Shown one piece after another: positions 4,719-14,365 of a stretch of DNA of 35,048 bases. Within the stretch, counting starts at the first letter, position 1. Each line of letters opens with the position of its first letter. The notes beneath the pieces were generated by a model. It was not told the origin of the DNA and did no database searches. It saw nothing but the letters and a program-made list of their open reading frames with translations. The translations under genes and the position numbers were made by a program. The DNA comes from Deltaproteobacteria bacterium (GTDB lineage: Bacteria; Desulfobacterota; Binatia; HRBIN30; JACQVA1): positions 1 through 35,048 of the forward strand of contig JACQVA010000206.1 in the NCBI GenBank assembly GCA_016210005.1, written 5' to 3'.

Positions 4719-6707
4719 ATGGCCATCGCGCTTGGGTCCGATTATCCGTTGCTGGCAGCCGTTGAGTCGCCGGCCGACATAAAGAAACTGGACGACGGTG
4801 GTCTGCGCGCGCTGGCCGACGAGATCCGAACCTTCATTATCGAGTCGGTAACGCGCACCGGTGGCCACCTGGGGGCCGGGCTGGGGGTGGTCGAGCTGAC
4901 GCTGGCGCTATTTGCCGAGTTCGACTTCAATCAGCACGACAAGCTGGTATGGGACGTCGGACATCAGTGCTATCCGCACAAGATCGTGACCGGCCGCGCC
5001 GCCGCGTTCGACTCCTTGCGCCAAGCGGGCGGGCTGTCCGGTTTCCCCGATCCCGCCGAGTCCGAGTTCGACACCGTCAAGACCGGCCACGGCGGGACGA
5101 GCATTTCCACCGCTGTCGGCCTGGCGCTGGCCTGGCGAGCGCACCCCGAGTGCGCCACGCGCAAGGCGGTGGCGGTGATCGGCGACGGCTCGCTGCAAGA
5201 AGGCAACGCCTACGAAGCCCTGAACCACGGCGGTACTTTCAAGGACCTCAACCTGGTGGTTGTGCTCAACGACAACAACATGAGCATCAGCCCGAGCGTC
5301 GGCGCCATGAGCGGCTACCTCTCGCGGGTGCGCAGCTCGACCTGGCTGCAAACGCGGCTGCGCACGATGCAGCGGGCCATCAAGCAGATCCCGGGCGTGG
5401 GCTCGAACCTCGAAGACGTGCTCCAGCGCTGGTATCACTCGCTGCAAGGCATCCTGCCCCAACATGCGCTGGGGATCATCTTCGAGGAGTTCGGTTTCTT
5501 CTATTACGGCCCGATCGACGGCCACGACGTCGGCGCGCTGCGGCGCGCCTTTCGCGACACCCGCTGGATGAAGCGGCCGGTGCTCATCCACGTCGTCACC
5601 ACCAAGGGGCGCGGCTACAAGGACGATGAGCCCGAGATCACCTGCTACCACGCTGCTCCCCCCAGCGCCGCCGTCACCGCCCAGATCGGCAAGGAGTACC
5701 CGGAGCAAGGCGGCCAGAGCTTCACCGCCGCCTTCGCCGAGCAGGCCATCAAGATGGCCGAGCGTGATCCGCGCCTGGTCGTGATCACGGCGGCGATGCT
5801 CGATGGCACCGGACTGACCAAGTTTCAGCAGCGCTTCCCCGAGCGCTGTTTCGACGTCGGCATGGCGGAGCAACACGCGGTGGCGATGGCCGCCGGCTTG
5901 GCCCTGGCCGGCTACTGGCCGATCTGTGCGATCTACTCCACCTTCCTCCAACGCGCCTACGACCAGGTGTTTCAGGAAGTGGCGTTGCAAAAGGCCCGCG
6001 TCCTCTTCTGTCTCGATCGTGGCGGCCTGGTCGGCTCCGATGGCGCCACCCACAACGGCGTGTTCGACATCGGCTACTTGCGCTGTCTGCCCAATTTCGC
6101 CCTGATGGCGCCGCGCGATGCCGGGGAGTTGGGTCAGATGATGGAGCTGGCCGCATCGTGGGACGGACCCGTGGCCATCCGTTTTCCGCGCGGCACCGGC
6201 GCCGCTGCGGGCGAGCGGCTGGCACACCGCCCCTTCGGCTTGGGCCAGGCCGAGCGCGTCGCCGACGGCAGCGACGGTTGCATCCTGGCTTACGGGCCGC
6301 TGACTTACACCGCCCTCGACGTGCGCCGGCGGATTCAGGAGCAAAGCGGTCAAACCTTGGCCGTGGTCAACGCCCGCTTCGTCAAGCCGCTCGATGAGCA
6401 ACTCATCCGGGAAGAGCTCGAGCGCCAGCCGGTGGTGTTCACGCTGGAAGATCACGCGCTCGCCGGCGGGTTCGGCTCAGCGGTGGCCGAGTTTGCCCTC
6501 ACGCGCCTGGAGAATTCCGCCCCTGCCGGCAGGCTGCAGCTGCTCGCCGTTCCCGACCGCTTCATCGATCATGGGGATCGCACCGAACAGTTGGCCGAGG
6601 CCGGGTTGGACATCGAGACTCTCACCAGCCGGATCAGTGCGCGGGTGGCACTGGCGTCGCCGGCGGTGCGGCCGATCAAGCGCGTCGGTCAAGCCGCTCG
6701 CCGCTGA
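4719..6707 (+). CDS. dxs: 1-deoxy-D-xylulose-5-phosphate synthase
   Basis: DXS condenses pyruvate and glyceraldehyde 3-phosphate to DXP, the first step of the MEP isoprenoid pathway, using thiamine diphosphate. The 662-residue length is normal. Motifs: TRTGGHLGAGLG (near 46-57), WDVGHQCYPHKI, the ThDP-binding GDGSLQEGNAYEALNH with LNDNNMSIS, FYYGPIDGHD, KGRGY...YHAA (conserved His), the catalytic Glu in FDVGMAEQHAV, and YSTFLQRAYDQV. The N-terminal MAIALGSDYPLL aligns with normal DXS beginnings, supporting ATG 4719 although the ribosome binding site is weak. No other MEP gene is nearby. It sits 33 bases after the esterase and 58 before an acyl-CoA dehydrogenase, so it may be transcribed with the fatty-acid-type genes. 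Confidence 0.95.
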   Translation: MAIALGSDYPLLAAVESPADIKKLDDGGLRALADEIRTFIIESVTRTGGHLGAGLGVVELTLALFAEFDFNQHDKLVWDVGHQCYPHKIVTGRAAAFDSLRQAGGLSGFPDPAESEFDTVKTGHGGTSISTAVGLALAWRAHPECATRKAVAVIGDGSLQEGNAYEALNHGGTFKDLNLVVVLNDNNMSISPSVGAMSGYLSRVRSSTWLQTRLRTMQRAIKQIPGVGSNLEDVLQRWYHSLQGILPQHALGIIFEEFGFFYYGPIDGHDVGALRRAFRDTRWMKRPVLIHVVTTKGRGYKDDEPEITCYHAAPPSAAVTAQIGKEYPEQGGQSFTAAFAEQAIKMAERDPRLVVITAAMLDGTGLTKFQQRFPERCFDVGMAEQHAVAMAAGLALAGYWPICAIYSTFLQRAYDQVFQEVALQKARVLFCLDRGGLVGSDGATHNGVFDIGYLRCLPNFALMAPRDAGELGQMMELAASWDGPVAIRFPRGTGAAAGERLAHRPFGLGQAERVADGSDGCILAYGPLTYTALDVRRRIQEQSGQTLAVVNARFVKPLDEQLIREELERQPVVFTLEDHALAGGFGSAVAEFALTRLENSAPAGRLQLLAVPDRFIDHGDRTEQLAEAGLDIETLTSRISARVALASPAVRPIKRVGQAARR

Positions 6708-6765: not shown

Positions 6766-7926
6766 ATGGATTTCCAGCTGAGCGAAGAACAGCGAGCACT
6801 GCAAGCAACGGTGCGCGAGTTGGCCGACCGGGAGCTCGCCCCCTTGGCCGCGCTGTGGGATCGCCAGGCGCGTGTGCCGCAAGCGCACGAGCTCGCTGCG
6901 CTGCTCAAAATGGGGTTGCACGGCATGTGCCTGCCTTCGCGCTACGGCGGTGGCGACCAGGACCTGCTGTCAGCGATCCTGGTGATCGAGCAGCTCGCGC
7001 GGGTCTCGCCGCTATGCGCCGCCGGCGTCTTCGAGTCGAACGTGGGACCGGTGCGCGTGATCGAGAAGTTCGGCACCGAGGAGCAAAAGCAGCGATTCCT
7101 GCCCGCGGTTTGCCGGGGCGAGATGCAGATCAGCGTCGGCATGACCGAGGCCGAAGCTGGTAGCGCGCTGACCAGCCTGCGGACCAAGGCCGAGAAGGCC
7201 GGCGGCGGCTGGGTTTTGAATGGCCGCAAGTGTTTCTGTACCGGCGGCGGTCATAGCGAGGCTTACCTGGTCTATTGCCGCTTCGGTGACGTGCCGGGCG
7301 CCAGAGGCATCGGGGCGATCGTTGTCGACAAAGACACCCCCGGCTTCAGTTTCGGCAAGCAGGAGCATTTCCTGGGGTTTCGCGGTTTCCCTTCTTGTGA
7401 CCTTATCTTCGAGGACTGTTTCGTTCCCGCACACAATCTAGTGGTCGAGCCGGGCGGCTTTGCCGGGTTGATGCAGTGCTTCGACATCGAGCGCTGCGGC
7501 AATGCCACCATGGCGCTCGGCATCGCCACCGGCGCACTCGAGTATGCCACCCAATACGCCTTGCAGCGTCACACCTTCAGCCGGCCCATCTGCGAGCGGC
7601 AGGCGATTCAGCTGATGATCGCCGACATGGCCACCCGCGTCGAGGCGGCGCGCTTGTTGGTCTACCGCGCGGCGGTGAGCGCTGCCGGCGGCTTCCCCTC
7701 GGTCCAGCAGACCTCGATGGCCAAGGTCTTCGCCAACGAGACCGCCAAGGCGGTAACCGATATGGCGCTCGAAATCCTCGGCGGGTATGGTTACAGCACC
7801 GAGTACCCGGTGGAGCGTATGCTGCGCGACAGCCGCGGCTGGCCCGTCGCCGGGGGCACGCTGCAAATCCAGAAGATCATCATCGCCGCCACCGTATTCG
7901 GGCGGCCTTTCGATCAGCGCAAGTAG
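6766..7926 (+). CDS. Acyl-CoA dehydrogenase, LCAD/IVD-type catalytic Glu
   Basis: This 386-residue FAD enzyme has the full acyl-CoA dehydrogenase fold: a helical N domain (DFQLSEEQRALQ), the middle beta domain (MTEAEAGSALTSL and the WVLNGRKCFCTGG region) and a C-terminal helical domain with RHTFSRPICERQAIQ and EILGGYGYSTEYPVER. It oxidises an acyl-CoA to the 2-enoyl-CoA and passes electrons to ETF. The MCAD-type base position (Glu in YEGT) is Gly here (G363 in AGGT), while E242 in FDIERCG occupies the site used by long-chain and isovaleryl-CoA dehydrogenases. That swap is known in those families and indicates an active enzyme, perhaps with long or branched substrates. AGGA lies upstream of the ATG. 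It leads the ligase/GRE/dehalogenase block; no ETF gene is nearby. Confidence 0.93.
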   Translation: MDFQLSEEQRALQATVRELADRELAPLAALWDRQARVPQAHELAALLKMGLHGMCLPSRYGGGDQDLLSAILVIEQLARVSPLCAAGVFESNVGPVRVIEKFGTEEQKQRFLPAVCRGEMQISVGMTEAEAGSALTSLRTKAEKAGGGWVLNGRKCFCTGGGHSEAYLVYCRFGDVPGARGIGAIVVDKDTPGFSFGKQEHFLGFRGFPSCDLIFEDCFVPAHNLVVEPGGFAGLMQCFDIERCGNATMALGIATGALEYATQYALQRHTFSRPICERQAIQLMIADMATRVEAARLLVYRAAVSAAGGFPSVQQTSMAKVFANETAKAVTDMALEILGGYGYSTEYPVERMLRDSRGWPVAGGTLQIQKIIIAATVFGRPFDQRK

Positions 7927-7965
7927 TGTCAGGGGGCGGGGCGCCGAGCGGGCGGAGGGAATCGC

Positions 7966-9513
7966 ATGAGAACTGTCGCTGAGCTCATTCGCTGGCGCGC
8001 CAAGCAACATGCCGAGCGCGTGGCGCTGGAGTACGCCGGCCGGTGGACGACCTACGCCGAACTCGATCGCCGCGCCAACCAAGTGGCCAACGCCCTGGTG
8101 CGCTGCGGGGTGCAACCGGGCGAGCACGTCTGCGTGCTCGACCACAATCACGCTCACATGTTCGAGACCATCTTCGGTATCGCCAAGGCGGGGGCGGTCT
8201 TTACGCCGATCAACTGGCGCCTGGCGCCGCCGGAGATGGCATTTCTGATCAACGACGGCAAAGCCCGGGTGGTGTTCGCCGGCCCGTCCTTCAGCGCTGC
8301 CCTCGGCTCGATCGAGCAGCAACTCGACACTGCCGGCACGATCGTCTGCTACGCCGAGGCGCACGAGCGCTGGCAGCCGTACGAAACTTGGCGTGACGCC
8401 GCCGCCACCACCGACCCTCGGCACGACGGCGGCGAGGACGACACCGCTTGGCAGCTCTACACCAGCGGTACCACGGGCACGCCCAAGGGCGCCGAGATCA
8501 CCCACCGCAACCTTTTGACCGTGCTCGCCAACGGGTTGCTGCCCGGGATCAGTGTAACCCCGGGCGAGCGCGCGCTCGTCTGCCTGCCGCTGTATCACAT
8601 CGGCGGCGCCGGCTACGCCCTGACCCTGTTGTACGCCGGGATGACGGCCGTTGTCGCCAACGTCTTCGACCCGGCGCAGATTCTGCGCCTGCTCGAGGAG
8701 CGCCGCATCACCCAGGCGTTTCTCGTGCCCACGATGATCAACTTCCTGCTGCAGACGCCGGCGTGCGCCGCCACCGACTTCAGCGCCCTCAAGACCATCA
8801 TCTACGGGGCCTCGGCCATACCGGTCGATCTGCTCGAACGCGCCCTCGCCGGCTTCGGCTGCTCGTTCGTGCAGGCCTACGGTCTGACGGAGACCACCGG
8901 CGCCATCTGCTATCTGCCGGCGGCCGATCACCTGCCGGGCAGCGCGCGGCTGAAGTCCGCCGGCCAGCCGGCTTTCGGCATCGACATCCGCACGGTCAAC
9001 GCTAGCGGTGACTTGTGCTCACCCGGGGAGGTAGGCGAGATCGTCGTCCGCGGCGATGCGGTGATGAAGGGCTATTGGAATCAACCCGAGGCCACGCGCG
9101 CGGCCATCGTCGATGGCTGGTTTCACACCGGCGATGCCGGGTACTTCGATGATGCCGGCTACCTGTACATCCACGACCGCGTCAAGGACATGATCGTCTC
9201 GGGCGCCGAAAACATCTACCCCGCCGAGGTCGAGCGGGTGTTGGCCCAGCATCCGGCGGTGTTCGACGTCGCCGTCATCGGCGTGCCTGACGAGCGCTGG
9301 GGCGAAGCGGTCAAGGCGGTGGTGCAGCTGCGGCCGGGCGCGCAGGCGAGCGAGAGCGAGCTGATCGCGCATTGCCGCGGCCGCATCGCCGACTACAAGT
9401 GCCCGAAGTCGGTCGATTTCTGCGCGGTCATCCCGCGTAACCCCAGCGGCAAAGCCCTCAAACGTGAGCTGCGCGAGCCTTACTGGCGCAACCGCAGCCG
9501 GCGCGTAAACTGA
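7966..9513 (+). CDS. AMP-forming acyl-CoA synthetase
   Basis: This 515-residue class I adenylate-forming enzyme activates a carboxylic acid to its acyl-AMP and then acyl-CoA. The core motifs are complete: phosphate loop YTSGTTGTPKG (165-175), YGLTETTG (305-312), GWFHTGDAGYFD, the hinge DRVKDMIVSGAENIYPAEVE, and the C-terminal catalytic lysine K496 in NPSGKALKREL. This layout matches fatty-acid and related carboxylate CoA ligases; chain length or aromatic preference cannot be read by eye. A GGAGGG ribosome binding site precedes the ATG. It follows the acyl-CoA dehydrogenase by 39 bases and precedes the glycyl radical enzyme by 14, so the three are probably one transcript acting on one CoA-linked substrate series. 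Confidence 0.93.
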   Translation: MRTVAELIRWRAKQHAERVALEYAGRWTTYAELDRRANQVANALVRCGVQPGEHVCVLDHNHAHMFETIFGIAKAGAVFTPINWRLAPPEMAFLINDGKARVVFAGPSFSAALGSIEQQLDTAGTIVCYAEAHERWQPYETWRDAAATTDPRHDGGEDDTAWQLYTSGTTGTPKGAEITHRNLLTVLANGLLPGISVTPGERALVCLPLYHIGGAGYALTLLYAGMTAVVANVFDPAQILRLLEERRITQAFLVPTMINFLLQTPACAATDFSALKTIIYGASAIPVDLLERALAGFGCSFVQAYGLTETTGAICYLPAADHLPGSARLKSAGQPAFGIDIRTVNASGDLCSPGEVGEIVVRGDAVMKGYWNQPEATRAAIVDGWFHTGDAGYFDDAGYLYIHDRVKDMIVSGAENIYPAEVERVLAQHPAVFDVAVIGVPDERWGEAVKAVVQLRPGAQASESELIAHCRGRIADYKCPKSVDFCAVIPRNPSGKALKRELREPYWRNRSRRVN

Positions 9514-9527
9514 ACGGAGAGATGATT

Positions 9528-11915
9528 ATGGCAGCACCCGCAGCACAGTTGCACAGCGATGCCGGGGCGAGCGCGCGGGTGTTACGCTTGCGCCAGCGCA
9601 TTGTCCACGCGCCGCGCGAGGCCTGCGTCGAACGCGCGCGCTATCTCACCCGCTCGATGGCGGCCAACTGGAGCGATCCGCCGCTGACCCGGATGAGCAA
9701 GGCGCTGGCGGAGGTGCTCGATAACATCAGTATCATCATCCGCGATGACGAGGTGATCGTCGGCTGCCGCACCAGCAAGCTCAAGGGCGCCCCGTTCTTC
9801 CCCGAGAACAAGGCGCGCTGGATCGAGCAGGATGCCGGCGGCTTGGCCGCGCGCACCATCCAGCGGGTGCTCATCAGCGACGCCGAGCGCGACGAGCTGG
9901 TGCAGGAGATCCTGCCGTTTTGGCGCGGGCGCACGGTCGAGGACCGCTTCGAGGTGCTGCTCCCGAGCGACGTCAACGAGGACATGCAGAAGTTCGTCTT
10001 CGGCGTATTGCTGGAGATCACTTACGGTATCGGACACTTCACCATGAACCACCGCCGCCTGCTGGCACAGGGCCTTGGCGGTATCATGGCCGCGGCCCGT
10101 GAAAAGCTGGCGGCACTAAGCCCCGACAAGCACGGCACCGACGAGGCGCTGTTCTTCGCGGCCGTCATCCGCTCGCTGGGGGCCGCCATCCATTTCGCGC
10201 ACCGCTACGCCGAGGAGGCTGAGCGCCTGGCCGGGCGCGCGCGCGACCCCCAGCGCCGCGCGGAGCTGCGCGAGATCGCCCGCGTCTGCCGCCGCGTTCC
10301 CGAGCACCCGGCGGCTAGCTTTCGCGAGGCCGTCCAGTCCGTCTACTTCATGCACCTCGTCGCCCAGATCGAAAGCGGCGGGAACTCGATCTCGCTCGGC
10401 CGCATCGACCAGATTCTGGCGCCTTACTACGATGCCGACATCGGCGCCGGCAGAATCACTCCTGGTGAGGCCAAGGAGCTGCTGTCGCTGCTGTTTCTCA
10501 AGACCAACGAGATCTGGAACATTCTCGAGGAGCCCTACATTCCCGGCGGCGAGGACACCGAGGGCAAGACCACCCAGAACGTCACCGTCGGCGGCATCGG
10601 CGCGGATGGCGCCGATGCCACTTGCGCGCTGAGCTACGTCGGCCTCGAAGCCTATGCCGATGTTCGCACCGTCCAACCCAACTTCGGCGTCCGCGTCGGT
10701 CCGGAAGCCCCGGCGGACTTCTGCCAGGCCGCCGTGCGCCATGCGCTAGCCGGCGTGGCGATGCACTTCTTCAACGACGAGGCCATCGTCGAGTCACTGG
10801 TAACCGCCGGCCACAGCCTCGAGGACGCCCGTGACTACGGCGTCGTCGGCTGCCTCGAACCCAACGCTCAGGGCAAGACCTTCGGCTCCACCTTCGCCGT
10901 GCAGCTCAACGGGCTCAAGTGTCTGGAGCTGGCGCTCAGCAACGGCGTCGACACCGTGTTCGGCAGCCGCGCCGGGCTGGCCACCGGCGACCCCGCCGCA
11001 TTCGCCTCGTTCGACGACGTCTGGCGCGCATACGACCGGCAGCTGCGCTACTTCCTCGATCAGATCGAACGGGGCATGGCGGCGCTCGATCAGGCGATCG
11101 CCGAGATGCTGCCCTCACCGCTGGCTTCGGCCATGATCGACGGGCCGTTGGACAAGGGCCTCGACCTCACCCGCGGGGGCGCGATCTACAATTCCACCGG
11201 CGTGCAACTCATCGGCTTCGCCAACGTGGCCGACAGTCTCAGTGCCATCCGTGAGGCGGTGTTCGAGCAGCGGGCGGTAACGGCCGCGGAGCTGGCCCGG
11301 CACTTGGCCGAAGATTGGCGCAACGGCGAGGCGCTGCGAACACGCCTTCTCCACCAGATTGAGAAGTACGGCAACGACGATGACCAAGCCGACGCCATGG
11401 CGGCCCGGGTGCTCGAACACTTCTGTGAGCAGGTGCGACAGCGGCGCAACATCCGCGGGGGCTCGTTCTGGCCGGGCGCCTTCTCGGTCGGGCTGCACAT
11501 CGCTATGGGCAGTTTCTCCGGTGCCAGCGCCGATGGCCGCCATGCCAGCGAGATCCTCAGCAACGGCATCACGCCGGTCGAAGGGCGCGCCAAGACCGGC
11601 CCGACGGCGCTGCTGAACTCAGTGGCGCGCATGCCGATCCGCTATGCTCCTAACGGCACCAACTTGAACATGCGCTTTAGTCCGAAGTGGCTCAAGGCGC
11701 CCATGCTCGCGTCGCTGTTGCAAACCTACTTCCGACTCGGTGGCGCGCAGGTGCAATTGAACATGGTCGACGGCGAGATCCTGCGCCAGGCCCAGCGCAA
11801 TCCCGAGGCCTACCGCGATCTCGTCGTCCGGGTCAGCGGTTACTCGGCGCTCTTCACCGAGCTGAGCCCGCGCGCCCAGGAAGAGATCATTAGCCGCATG
11901 CAGTATTGCGCCTGA
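9528..11915 (+). CDS. Glycyl radical enzyme, dehydratase/lyase type
   Basis: This 795-residue member of the pyruvate-formate-lyase superfamily is intact. The thiyl-radical cysteine C442 lies in YGVVGCLEPN, and E444 completes the GCxEP motif of glycerol/propanediol dehydratases, choline lyase and related C-O, C-N, C-S or C-C cleaving enzymes. PFL itself has adjacent cysteines instead, and arylalkylsuccinate synthases lack this Glu. The radical-bearing glycine is G771 in RVSGYSALF, at the usual distance from the C terminus. Other family blocks are NSISLGRIDQ, SFSGASADGRHASE and NGTNLNMRFSP. ATG 9528 is preferred over 9522 because CGGAGA ends at 9520, seven bases away. Such enzymes need a radical-SAM activase and die in oxygen; no activase is in this window. 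Substrate unknown. Confidence 0.93.
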   Translation: MAAPAAQLHSDAGASARVLRLRQRIVHAPREACVERARYLTRSMAANWSDPPLTRMSKALAEVLDNISIIIRDDEVIVGCRTSKLKGAPFFPENKARWIEQDAGGLAARTIQRVLISDAERDELVQEILPFWRGRTVEDRFEVLLPSDVNEDMQKFVFGVLLEITYGIGHFTMNHRRLLAQGLGGIMAAAREKLAALSPDKHGTDEALFFAAVIRSLGAAIHFAHRYAEEAERLAGRARDPQRRAELREIARVCRRVPEHPAASFREAVQSVYFMHLVAQIESGGNSISLGRIDQILAPYYDADIGAGRITPGEAKELLSLLFLKTNEIWNILEEPYIPGGEDTEGKTTQNVTVGGIGADGADATCALSYVGLEAYADVRTVQPNFGVRVGPEAPADFCQAAVRHALAGVAMHFFNDEAIVESLVTAGHSLEDARDYGVVGCLEPNAQGKTFGSTFAVQLNGLKCLELALSNGVDTVFGSRAGLATGDPAAFASFDDVWRAYDRQLRYFLDQIERGMAALDQAIAEMLPSPLASAMIDGPLDKGLDLTRGGAIYNSTGVQLIGFANVADSLSAIREAVFEQRAVTAAELARHLAEDWRNGEALRTRLLHQIEKYGNDDDQADAMAARVLEHFCEQVRQRRNIRGGSFWPGAFSVGLHIAMGSFSGASADGRHASEILSNGITPVEGRAKTGPTALLNSVARMPIRYAPNGTNLNMRFSPKWLKAPMLASLLQTYFRLGGAQVQLNMVDGEILRQAQRNPEAYRDLVVRVSGYSALFTELSPRAQEEIISRMQYCA

Positions 11916-11925
11916 GCGTGCGGAT

Positions 11926-12882
11926 ATGAGTGAGAGCAGGGGGCCGTTGCTCGAGGTGCTGCGAACGCCCGAGGCGCGCTTCGCGAACCTACCCGGGTAC
12001 GGCTTTGCGCCACACTATCTCGAGGTCGCAGGGCCGCAAGGCACGCGCCTGCGCATGCATTACCTCGACGAGGGGCCACGCGCCGCACCGGTGGTGCTGT
12101 TGCTTCACGGCGAGCCGACCTGGTCGTACTTGTATCGCAAGCTGATCCCGGTGCTGGTGGCGGCCGGGCTGCGCGCGGTGGCGCCGGATCACATCGGGTT
12201 CGGGCGTTCGGACAAGCTGGTCACCCGCACGGATTACACCTTCGAGCGTCATCGCGATTGGCTGCGCACTCTGGTGCGCGCCCTGGATCTGGTCAACATC
12301 GTGGTGGTCTGCCAAGACTGGGGCGGGCCGATCGGTCTCGGCGTGCTGGCGGGTGAACCGGAGCGGTTCGCGGCCGTGGTCGCGGCCAACACCATCTTGC
12401 CCACGGTCGAGCCCGAACTCACTGCCGGTGTACTCGAATGGCGCAGCGACTTGCTGCTGGATTGGATCCTCACCTCGCAGCGGCTAGCCGAATTTCCCGC
12501 CGGTGGCATCGTCGCCGGGGTGTGCAAGTCGGCGCTAACACCGGCGGTGATTGCGGCCTACGACGCGCCGTTTCCAGACGAAAGCTACAAGGCGGGGGTG
12601 CGGCAGTTCCCGGTGTTGATTCCACTGACGCCGGCTGATCCCGGCGCCGCAATCAACCGGGCCACCTGGGCGGTGCTGGCGCGTTTCGAGCGCCCCTTTG
12701 TGACTGCTTTCTCCGACTCCGACCCTGCTACCGCCGGCTGGCAGACGATCTTCCAGCGCGGCGTGCCCGGTGCGCAAGGCCAGCCGCACGTGACCATTGC
12801 CGACGCCGGCCACTTTTTGCAGGAAGACGCGGGCGAGGCGTTGGCGGAGGTGATCGTCGCGCTGGCGCGCCGGCTCGGTTGA
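11926..12882 (+). CDS. Haloalkane dehalogenase, DhlA-like (HLD-I)
   Basis: This 318-residue cytoplasmic alpha/beta hydrolase aligns by eye along its length with Xanthobacter DhlA: RTPEARFANLPGY at the start, HYLDEG, HGEPTWSYLYRK, then FGRSDK. The nucleophile is D131 (VCQDWGG), the acid D266 (FSDSDP) and the base H296 (ADAGHFLQE). Both halide-holding tryptophans are present: W132 beside the nucleophile and W172 in the cap (LEWRSD). Together these are the HLD-I catalytic pentad, so hydrolysis of a carbon-halogen bond is the best prediction, with an epoxide hydrolase or another alpha/beta hydrolase as the alternative. It starts 10 bases after the glycyl radical enzyme without a strong ribosome binding site, suggesting translational coupling. 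It ends 19 bases from the convergent CoA-transferase. Confidence 0.85.
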   Translation: MSESRGPLLEVLRTPEARFANLPGYGFAPHYLEVAGPQGTRLRMHYLDEGPRAAPVVLLLHGEPTWSYLYRKLIPVLVAAGLRAVAPDHIGFGRSDKLVTRTDYTFERHRDWLRTLVRALDLVNIVVVCQDWGGPIGLGVLAGEPERFAAVVAANTILPTVEPELTAGVLEWRSDLLLDWILTSQRLAEFPAGGIVAGVCKSALTPAVIAAYDAPFPDESYKAGVRQFPVLIPLTPADPGAAINRATWAVLARFERPFVTAFSDSDPATAGWQTIFQRGVPGAQGQPHVTIADAGHFLQEDAGEALAEVIVALARRLG

Positions 12883-12901
12883 GGCGGCGCTCGGCCGGTT
12901 G

Positions 12902-14314
12902 TCAGAACTGCATCTCTTGTACGTCGCCGGCTACGCGCAGAGGCGCGGCGGTCGCGGCCCTGACGTCGTCCACGCTCAGTCCGGGCGCGAGCTCGCGCAA
13001 CCGGAAGCCTTCTTCGTCAACGTCGATCCAGGCCAGGTCGGTGACCACCGACTTGACGCAAGCGAGCGCGGTGGGCGGGTAACTGAGTTGCTCGACCAGC
13101 TTGGAGCGGCCGTTGCGCTCGCGGTGATAGCAGACGGCAATCACGCGGGCGCCGCCCGCGGCCATGTCCATCGCGCCGCCGATCCCGCCGCTGCCGTTGG
13201 GCGTGCTCCAGTTGGCAAGATCACCGTTCTGCGCCACCTCAAAAGCTCCGAGCACGGTGGTCGAAACGCGTCCGCTGCGTGCCATGGCGAAGGAAGCGTT
13301 CGAGTCGAAATACGCCGTCCCGACCACCGGCGTCACCAGTTGCCCGCTGGCGTTGTAGAGGTCGATGTCCTCCTCACCCTCGGCCGGGAATGGGCCGTAG
13401 CCGAGGATGCCGTTCTCCGCGTGCAGCGTGATGTCGCGCCCGGCGATGTAGTTGGACACCAGCGTCGGCAGTCCGATGCCGAGGTTGACGTACTCGCCGG
13501 CGCGTAGCAGTGCCGCCGCCTTGGCCGCCATCAAGTCGGCGGGCAACCCCACCGGACCGCCGTCGCGCAGCGCGCGCCCCTCTGCGTCGCTTACCCGGCC
13601 GACCGATTGGAGGATGTAGCGCAGCACGCCGATGTCGACATGTGTGGTTGTCTGGACGATGCGGTCGACGAAGATCCCGGGGGTTACCACCGCCTCGGGT
13701 TCGATGGCGCCGAGGGCGACGACCTCCTTGACCTCGGCGATGGTGGTACGCGCGGCCGAGGCGAACGCCGGCCCGAAATTGCGCATGCCGCGGCGGTAAG
13801 TGAGGTTGCCGGCCGGGTCGGCTTGGTAGGCCTGCAGCAGAGCGAAGTCGGCGCTAAGCGCGCGCTCGAAGATGTAGCGCTTGCCGTCGAACACCCGCTC
13901 TTCTTTTCCGGCCGCCACCGCGGTGCCCACGCCGGTGGGCGTGAAGAAGCCGGCCAGTCCGGCACCGCCGGCGCGCACGCGCTCGATCAGGGTTCCCTGC
14001 GGCACCATTTCGAGTTCGATCTCCCGCGCCTTGACCATGTCGCTGATCGGTGTCGGAATCGCCGGGGCGCCGATGTAGCTGCAGACCAGCTTGCGGATCT
14101 GCCGCTTGTCGGCAAGCACATTGAGTGAGGTTGGACCACCAGCCGGCGTGTTGCAGATGACTGTAAGATCCTTGACCCCACGCTCAGCGAGCGCGAGCAG
14201 GCAGTCGGTCGGCCACGCCTGCGGCGGGCCGAAGCTGTGGACGAGGAGGGTGGCGCCGTCGTTGATATCGGCGACGGCCTCGCGTGCGGATGAGCAAATC
14301 GTCTTGGTCGCCAT
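12902..14314 (-). CDS. Fused alpha/beta CoA-transferase (family I, SCOT-like)
   Basis: This 470-residue protein carries both halves of a family I 3-oxoacid-type CoA-transferase in one chain: an alpha-like half (about 1-235) and a beta-like half (about 258-470). The second contains E300 in HAENGILG, the glutamate that forms the covalent CoA thioester, and the oxyanion stretch GIGLPTLVSNY. Such enzymes move CoA between an acyl-CoA and a free acid. Bacterial forms are usually two separate subunits, so the fusion is notable; the usual alpha-subunit start is also altered (DGATLLVHSFGP in place of the glycine-rich loop). ATG 14314 is preferred to an upstream GTG at 14332; neither has a strong ribosome binding site. 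It faces the dehalogenase convergently and follows the SRPBCC gene by 51 bases. Donor and acceptor acids are unknown. Confidence 0.88.
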   Translation of the reverse strand: MATKTICSSAREAVADINDGATLLVHSFGPPQAWPTDCLLALAERGVKDLTVICNTPAGGPTSLNVLADKRQIRKLVCSYIGAPAIPTPISDMVKAREIELEMVPQGTLIERVRAGGAGLAGFFTPTGVGTAVAAGKEERVFDGKRYIFERALSADFALLQAYQADPAGNLTYRRGMRNFGPAFASAARTTIAEVKEVVALGAIEPEAVVTPGIFVDRIVQTTTHVDIGVLRYILQSVGRVSDAEGRALRDGGPVGLPADLMAAKAAALLRAGEYVNLGIGLPTLVSNYIAGRDITLHAENGILGYGPFPAEGEEDIDLYNASGQLVTPVVGTAYFDSNASFAMARSGRVSTTVLGAFEVAQNGDLANWSTPNGSGGIGGAMDMAAGGARVIAVCYHRERNGRSKLVEQLSYPPTALACVKSVVTDLAWIDVDEEGFRLRELAPGLSVDDVRAATAAPLRVAGDVQEMQF

Positions 14315-14365
14315 GGCTGGTCCGGATGTCACGCCGAGCGCGCGTTGGCAAGCCGATCGCGCCGG

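Follow-up and report, generated by a model that had tools for sequence, protein, structure and literature searches.

Gene content of the locus

The window analysed here is the whole of a 35,048-nucleotide stretch, contig C206 (JACQVA010000206.1) of a deltaproteobacterial draft genome (GCA_016210005.1; 5.9 Mb in 268 contigs, completeness 97.6%, contamination 4.5%). It encodes a glycyl radical enzyme (GRE) preceded by an acyl-CoA dehydrogenase (ACAD) and an acyl-CoA ligase. The grouping of GRE, ACAD and CoA activation exceeds chance, as judged from related loci, and the combination looks like an uncharacterised breakdown pathway rather than a chance grouping, because the GRE keeps recurring partners even in bacteria that are only distantly related. 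GREs are responsible for bond cleavages in anaerobes that rank among the hardest known, and the description of a new subfamily has often led to a pathway. The initial annotation of the window, made from the DNA letters, knew of no described pathway joining these activities, and no paper on the combination was found in a search that covered few subscription journals or preprints.

Four genes on the plus strand (6766-12882), faced by a CoA-transferase gene, were described in that annotation, and this arrangement is borne out by open reading frame coordinates and by domain and family matches. The ACAD (6766-7926, +; 386 aa, three ACAD domains) is the conserved partner of the GRE. The AMP-binding acyl-CoA ligase (7966-9513, +; 515 aa, PRK06187 type) occupies the place held by GctAB in most relatives. 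The GRE (9522-11915, +; 797 aa) is followed by a dehalogenase-like gene, and successive genes are separated by 39, 8 and 10 bases. Of these gaps, the first and last had been given correctly, and the 14 bases reported for the middle one fit an alternative GRE start at the second in-frame ATG (9528).

The GRE scores far above the cut-offs of both PF02901 and PF01228 and has the active-site Cys and the C-terminal RVxGY Gly. Its GCLEP motif (10848-10862, +), with Cys444 (the expected thiyl radical site) and Glu446, is invariant across 10 aligned rows, as is Gly773 of the glycyl radical motif RVSGYSALF (11829-11855, +). Both motifs are complete and internal stops are absent, consistent with the intact GCxEP-type enzyme first described.

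A distinct glycyl radical enzyme subfamily

Sequence comparisons place the GRE in a distinct, apparently uncharacterised subfamily. A FastTree phylogeny of 50 sequences (one typed reference, midpoint root, BssA absent from the set) shows the subfamily of the window GRE as monophyletic, with a support of 0.87. Neither the window GRE nor its relative L037, the two members scanned, reached an NCBIfam equivalog cut-off, and the window GRE was far below the curated cut-offs of the CutC, HypD, HpsG/HpfG, indoleacetate and hydroxyphenylacetate decarboxylase and PFL equivalogs. Against TIGR01774 (PFL2-3 subfamily, cut-off 678.2 bits), the window GRE scored 667.6 bits and L037 682.8 bits.

The closest solved proteins are glycerol dehydratase (504 bits) and 1,2-propanediol dehydratase (478 bits; 1r8w, 5i2a, 9rco for the two types), with which the GRE shares the full-length fold, the Cys, the C-x-E Glu, the glycyl loop and the H164 and S282 positions. 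These scores favour an ordinary 1,2-diol dehydratase of the glycerol/propanediol type, the remaining genes merely oxidising its aldehyde, and so does the presence of an aldehyde dehydrogenase (ALDH) or aldehyde ferredoxin oxidoreductase (AOR) in some related loci. Comparison of the predicted structure also gave Z 45-46 to the diol dehydratases, though tied with CutC and hydroxyproline dehydratase; the model from a 10-row alignment was poor (pLDDT 59.5), and that from a 16-row alignment (pLDDT 73.2) had low-confidence stretches near the active site (337-350, 455-458, 655-695 and 771-775). The aligned diol-site positions speak against a diol dehydratase. Of H164, H281, S282, Y339 and D447, which we take to be the diol-site residues of glycerol dehydratase, H281, Y339 and D447 are replaced by N, T and F in 23/23 aligned members, while H164, S282, C433 and E435 (glycerol dehydratase numbering) are retained in all of them; this alignment covers 23 of the 28 loci described below, five partial or broken members being left unaligned. 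In addition, identity to the diol dehydratases is 33-36%, the window GRE stays below the dehydratase equivalog cut-off, and the neighbours in its family differ from theirs, being ACAD, short-chain dehydrogenases/reductases (SDRs) and CoA activation. An ordinary diol dehydratase is therefore considered rather unlikely.

Among GRE lyases, which use C-x-E, CutC, isethionate lyase and HypD yield carbonyl products. The window GRE has the GC-x-E motif in common with CutC, but it differs from CutC and other GRE lyases by an identity of 26-30% and by the unreached CutC and HypD cut-offs.

The nearest branch in the tree is a sister clade (L023, L026 and L051; support 1.0). L051, with an activase, an ACAD and the motif GCLENT, had hinted that this clade too might be an ACAD partner, an idea that was dropped when five of five further loci (L112-L116) gave no ACAD match; in these the GRE has an activase gene and a PPOX-like gene as its partners. 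The ACAD link thus seems to be confined to the subfamily to which the window GRE belongs.

Conservation of the gene context

A homologue search with the GRE returned 17 loci, of which six (Firmicutes GREs at 29-33%) were left out of the family. The other 11 are close relatives (58-71%) assigned by record titles to Deltaproteobacteria (2), Ardenticatenales, Dehalococcoidia (2), Desulfosudis, Desulfobacteraceae, Desulfobacterium, Spirochaetes, Zymogenus and Binatota. A second set comprised 291 genomes of the class of the Desulfosudis genome (hereafter the sulfate-reducer class), sampled from a larger group, and 19 of them carry the GRE with an E value of at most 1e-200. The window, the 11 homologue-search loci and 16 loci from this set make up the 28 loci compared; the three further GRE genomes among the 19 represent the same places as L037, L039 and L042 and were not recounted. 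Genes were called with a simple codon model, so that gene starts in related loci are approximate, and partner matches were counted at a minimum of 50% identity. In the class of the window genome, the GRE occurs at 69% or more in 3/98 genomes (its own included), the remaining GRE matches being at most 39% save for short C-terminal pieces at 42-44%. Identical contig coordinates of GRE and ACAD suggest that G078 is the same genome as G105, and G044 the same as G098; in G078/G105 the two genes lie on separate contigs (C105 and C41).

The recurrent order is PadR, an extended SDR (F6), an SDR (F1), GRE, GctA, GctB, PrpD, ACAD and a further protein (F10). In genomes of the sulfate-reducer class this order from PadR to ACAD is the usual one, and shorter versions occur in Chloroflexota and Spirochaetes (per record titles); three Chloroflexota loci (L034, L035 and L041) have GRE-GctA-GctB-PrpD-ACAD, and L041 has F6 and F1 as well. 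Over the 28 loci, F1 was found in 23, F6 in 21, GctA in 19, ACAD, GctB and PadR in 18 each, PrpD in 16, F10 in 11, ALDH in four and the ligase in two. Ten loci lack the ACAD: eight end before its place (L038, L042, L043, L092, L095, L096, L098 and L105), and two have long flanks and no ACAD (L040 and L106). Of the four-gene order that the initial annotation proposed to look for in related genomes, the association of GRE, ACAD and CoA activation is conserved and recurs in distant genomes.

The other ligase locus, L033, belongs to the class of the window genome and has the ligase (69%) and ACAD (77%) adjoining the GRE on the opposite strand, followed by MarR, SDR F1 and an activase. Directly after this activase lie genes for a 4Fe-4S dicluster protein and a molybdopterin oxidoreductase (L033 11809-15680, +). 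Two loci carry a distant second GRE (about 35%) at the PadR end of the operon (L095 7084-9531, -; L096 2855-5374, +), and in L096 an activase-like gene stands between it and the PadR end.

The link between GRE and ACAD is also real at the level of whole genomes. The ACAD was found in 20/291 genomes at E 1e-130, 16 of them with the GRE (p = 5e-20), and when two GREs cut by contig ends are added, 18 genomes have both, three the GRE only and two the ACAD only (p = 1e-23); in the class of the window genome, all three GRE genomes are among the eight of 98 with the ACAD (p = 0.0004). These p-values overstate certainty because related genomes were treated as independent. Four genomes had at first counted as having the ACAD only: in G310 and G349 the contig end cuts the GRE down to a fragment, and G109 and G173, without a GRE at the threshold, hold PadR (54-60%), GctAB, PrpD and ACAD with neither GRE nor SDR beside them. 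The three genomes with the GRE only are two cut by contig ends (G107 and G170) and G171, whose GRE is broken. This GRE (L106 9776-13106, -) lies in three pieces with in-frame TGA and TAG, a 403-aa open reading frame runs on the opposite strand between the pieces, and G171 has no ACAD at the threshold. That the genes are chance neighbours without a common pathway is hardly credible: the GRE that stands without partners in L040 would fit such a view, but the order recurs in at least four phyla (per record titles) and co-occurrence among genomes is strong.

In the ACAD of the window, the canonical catalytic Glu of YEGT is a Gly, giving AGGT. Among 31 family ACADs that reach this region, 28 have AGGT and three AGGS, and the three solved ACADs compared have YEGT. 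A Glu is found instead in FDIERCGN, at what is presumably the base position of isovaleryl-CoA dehydrogenase (F-[DN]-x-E-R-C-G-N); it precedes the Arg in 32/32 ACADs, the window included, which had been selected by the frame F-[DN]-x-x-R-C-G-N. The best NCBIfam models are of the 3-sulfinopropanoyl-CoA desulfinase and acryloyl-CoA reductase types (348 and 347 bits), far below their cut-offs (600 and 640).

A ligase takes the place of GctAB in the window and in L033. A hidden GctAB was sought in the ligase genomes and rejected, since GctA relatives reach only 30-34% in G000 and none was found in G098 at E 1e-20; the ligase is therefore the candidate CoA activator in the window. The best match of the L037 GctB (E 8e-54) is glutaconate CoA-transferase, which acts on a dicarboxylate; this would suit a GRE that adds its substrate to fumarate in the manner of benzylsuccinate synthase, with CoA-transferase, ACAD and SDRs oxidising the substituted succinate as in bbs. 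The toluene pathway (bss/bbs) combines a GRE with a CoA-transferase, an ACAD and two SDRs, a likeness that extends to the grouping of GRE, CoA activation, ACAD and SDRs seen here. The window GRE is, however, distant from both BssA (236 bits) and MasD (262 bits) when compared with glycerol dehydratase (504 bits), and it retains C-x-E, and its family has a GctAB-type CoA-transferase or a ligase and a PrpD-type protein. Addition to fumarate is accordingly judged quite improbable.

The dehalogenase-like hydrolase (11926-12882, +; 318 aa) is a predicted haloalkane dehalogenase of the PRK00870 subfamily in NCBIfam (407.7 bits, cut-off 265) and matches solved haloalkane dehalogenases at E 5e-110. Its position 10 bases downstream of the GRE on the same strand would favour a route for a halogenated acid in which it is a working member, as the initial annotation had considered. 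By BLAST, however, none of the 27 other loci, many of which end early, showed a match to it next to the GRE, and the same holds for the facing fused A+B 3-oxoacid-type CoA-transferase (12902-14332, -), which differs from the GctAB pair of relatives. Since its dehalogenase is a feature of the window only, the halogenated-acid route is without support and very unlikely, and the hydrolase is probably a mere neighbour outside the system. The CoA-linked route suggested earlier is supported as regards GRE, ACAD and CoA activation; membership of the dehalogenase or of the CoA-transferase that faces it is not supported. Upstream, dxs (4719-6707, +) ends 58 bases before the ACAD, and it too is unmatched next to the GRE elsewhere in the set of 28 loci.

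Activation, proposed pathway and a possible selenoprotein counterpart

An activase encoded alongside its GRE is usual, not obligatory. None had been noticed in the window, and this holds: a TIGR02494 search of the whole genome gave eight matches, none of them on the window contig, and the only one above the cut-off lies on contig C207, beside the second of the two GREs of the genome. That second GRE (L011 10610-13168, -) has GCIN instead of GC-x-E and meets no equivalog cut-off; a close relative of it is carried by G008 in the tree. As a family trait, the lack of an activase does not stand, given the C207 gene and the activase-like genes in 6/28 loci (L033, L036, L096, L097, L099 and L103; the calls for L096, L097 and L099 are from BLAST only, and in L096 the gene follows the second GRE). 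An activase over the cut-off was found in 10/11 genomes examined. G101 has one GRE and one such activase, both inside the cluster; in G100 the activase is about 15 kb from the GRE, and G105 has two, each adjoining another GRE.

A dedicated activase clade was rejected: in a tree of 25 activases, which was built without the activase-like genes of L096, L097, L099 and L103, those of L033 and L036 fall in different branches, so that this GRE has no activase clade of its own, which makes a shared activase the likelier case. G102 and G107 carry orphan activases, and these too group with other sequences in this tree. The GRE of the window genome would then be activated in trans, an activase absent from the draft assembly being also possible.

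Taken together, the gene content favours, at a probability of about 0.55, a GRE that opens a catabolic module not yet characterised: a predicted radical lyase whose reaction would lead to an acid for CoA activation and oxidation by the ACAD. The sequence of reactions, the type of bond broken and the chemistry are inferred as follows. A radical-SAM activase, acting in trans in the window genome and in cis in some relatives, would activate the GRE; Gly773 would hand the radical to Cys444, and the Cys444 thiyl would abstract hydrogen from a substrate on which one or two SDRs had already acted. A substituent would be cleaved off with Glu446 as acid or base, and the resulting carbonyl product may be converted to the acid by the ALDH or AOR encoded near the GRE in some loci. 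The acid would become a CoA ester through the ligase in the window and the GctAB-type CoA-transferase elsewhere, to be desaturated by the ACAD, whose base would have shifted to a position like that in isovaleryl-CoA dehydrogenase; hydration and 3-hydroxyacyl oxidation may fall to PrpD and the SDRs. In G173, which has no GRE, an iron-type alcohol dehydrogenase and an ALDH adjoin GctA on the other strand beside GctAB-PrpD-ACAD (L132), which suggests that the acid may also derive from an alcohol.

Several observations weigh against this entry-enzyme reading, besides the non-independence of the genomes. The SDRs of the operon were not found on the window contig; a relative of F1 (61-66%) occurs once per genome at E 1e-40 in G000, G098, G105 and G101, on a different contig from the GRE in two of the four, the copy of the window genome being at 64%. 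In L036 and L104 the available stretch contains the GRE and the ACAD but no CoA-activating gene, and the GRE of L040 has no partner at all beside it. An ALDH (at least 50%, four loci) or AOR (L099 and L102) accompanies the GRE in only 6/28 loci. The F10 protein has no Pfam match and no PDB match better than E 0.65; its likeness to SCP2, seen by eye, was not counted as evidence. The downstream half also works without the GRE, because 5/8 ACAD-bearing genomes of the window's class lack it, as do G109 and G173. Finally, the genes come from draft or metagenome assemblies and are known here as sequence only.

The ACAD loci of the five class genomes without the GRE (L126-L130; ACAD at 69% or more) contain SDR F1 (4/5), SDR F6 (3/5), a ligase (30-40%; 5/5), a GMC oxidoreductase (5/5; by Pfam for L127, by BLAST for the others), a UGSC-family gene (5/5) and a partner protein of about 360-470 aa without a Pfam match (4/5); L128 is a short contig. 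A PF24696 search of 17 genomes found UGSC in six, these five and G105, and none in G000, G098 and nine genomes of other classes, nor in 14 control genomes; G000 and G098 are those with the GRE within the ACAD cluster. In each of the six class genomes a UGSC gene lies at most 700 bases from the ACAD, with an in-frame TGA directly before GSC in five (L122, L126, L127, L128 and L130) and a Cys codon in one (L129, G053). UGSC selenoproteins are known from bioinformatics, and the parts of the sources consulted establish no function for them (PMC2398784, PMC13188914).

The GRE and a putative selenoprotein system, UGSC with its 360-470 aa partner, may tentatively be seen as interchangeable entry enzymes of one pathway. 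This possibility is weakened by second or third UGSC copies away from the ACAD in five of the six UGSC/ACAD genomes, from which it follows that the family has other settings too, and by the fact that ACAD-less genomes were searched for UGSC only in other classes. If it is true, a glycyl radical and a selenocysteine enzyme would cleave the same bond, which would give a functional lead for the UGSC family. The multi-gene surroundings of the GRE itself are conserved in Dehalococcoidia, in Binatota and in genomes of the sulfate-reducer class, and this context, the distinct active site and the possible selenoprotein substitute make its substrate searchable with a small gene set. A representative UGSC gene, with in-frame TGA before GSC, is found at L127 9481-10071 (+), beside the ACAD and the conserved partner; in G105, where the GRE is on another contig, the UGSC gene lies near the ACAD with a partner 66% like that of L127.

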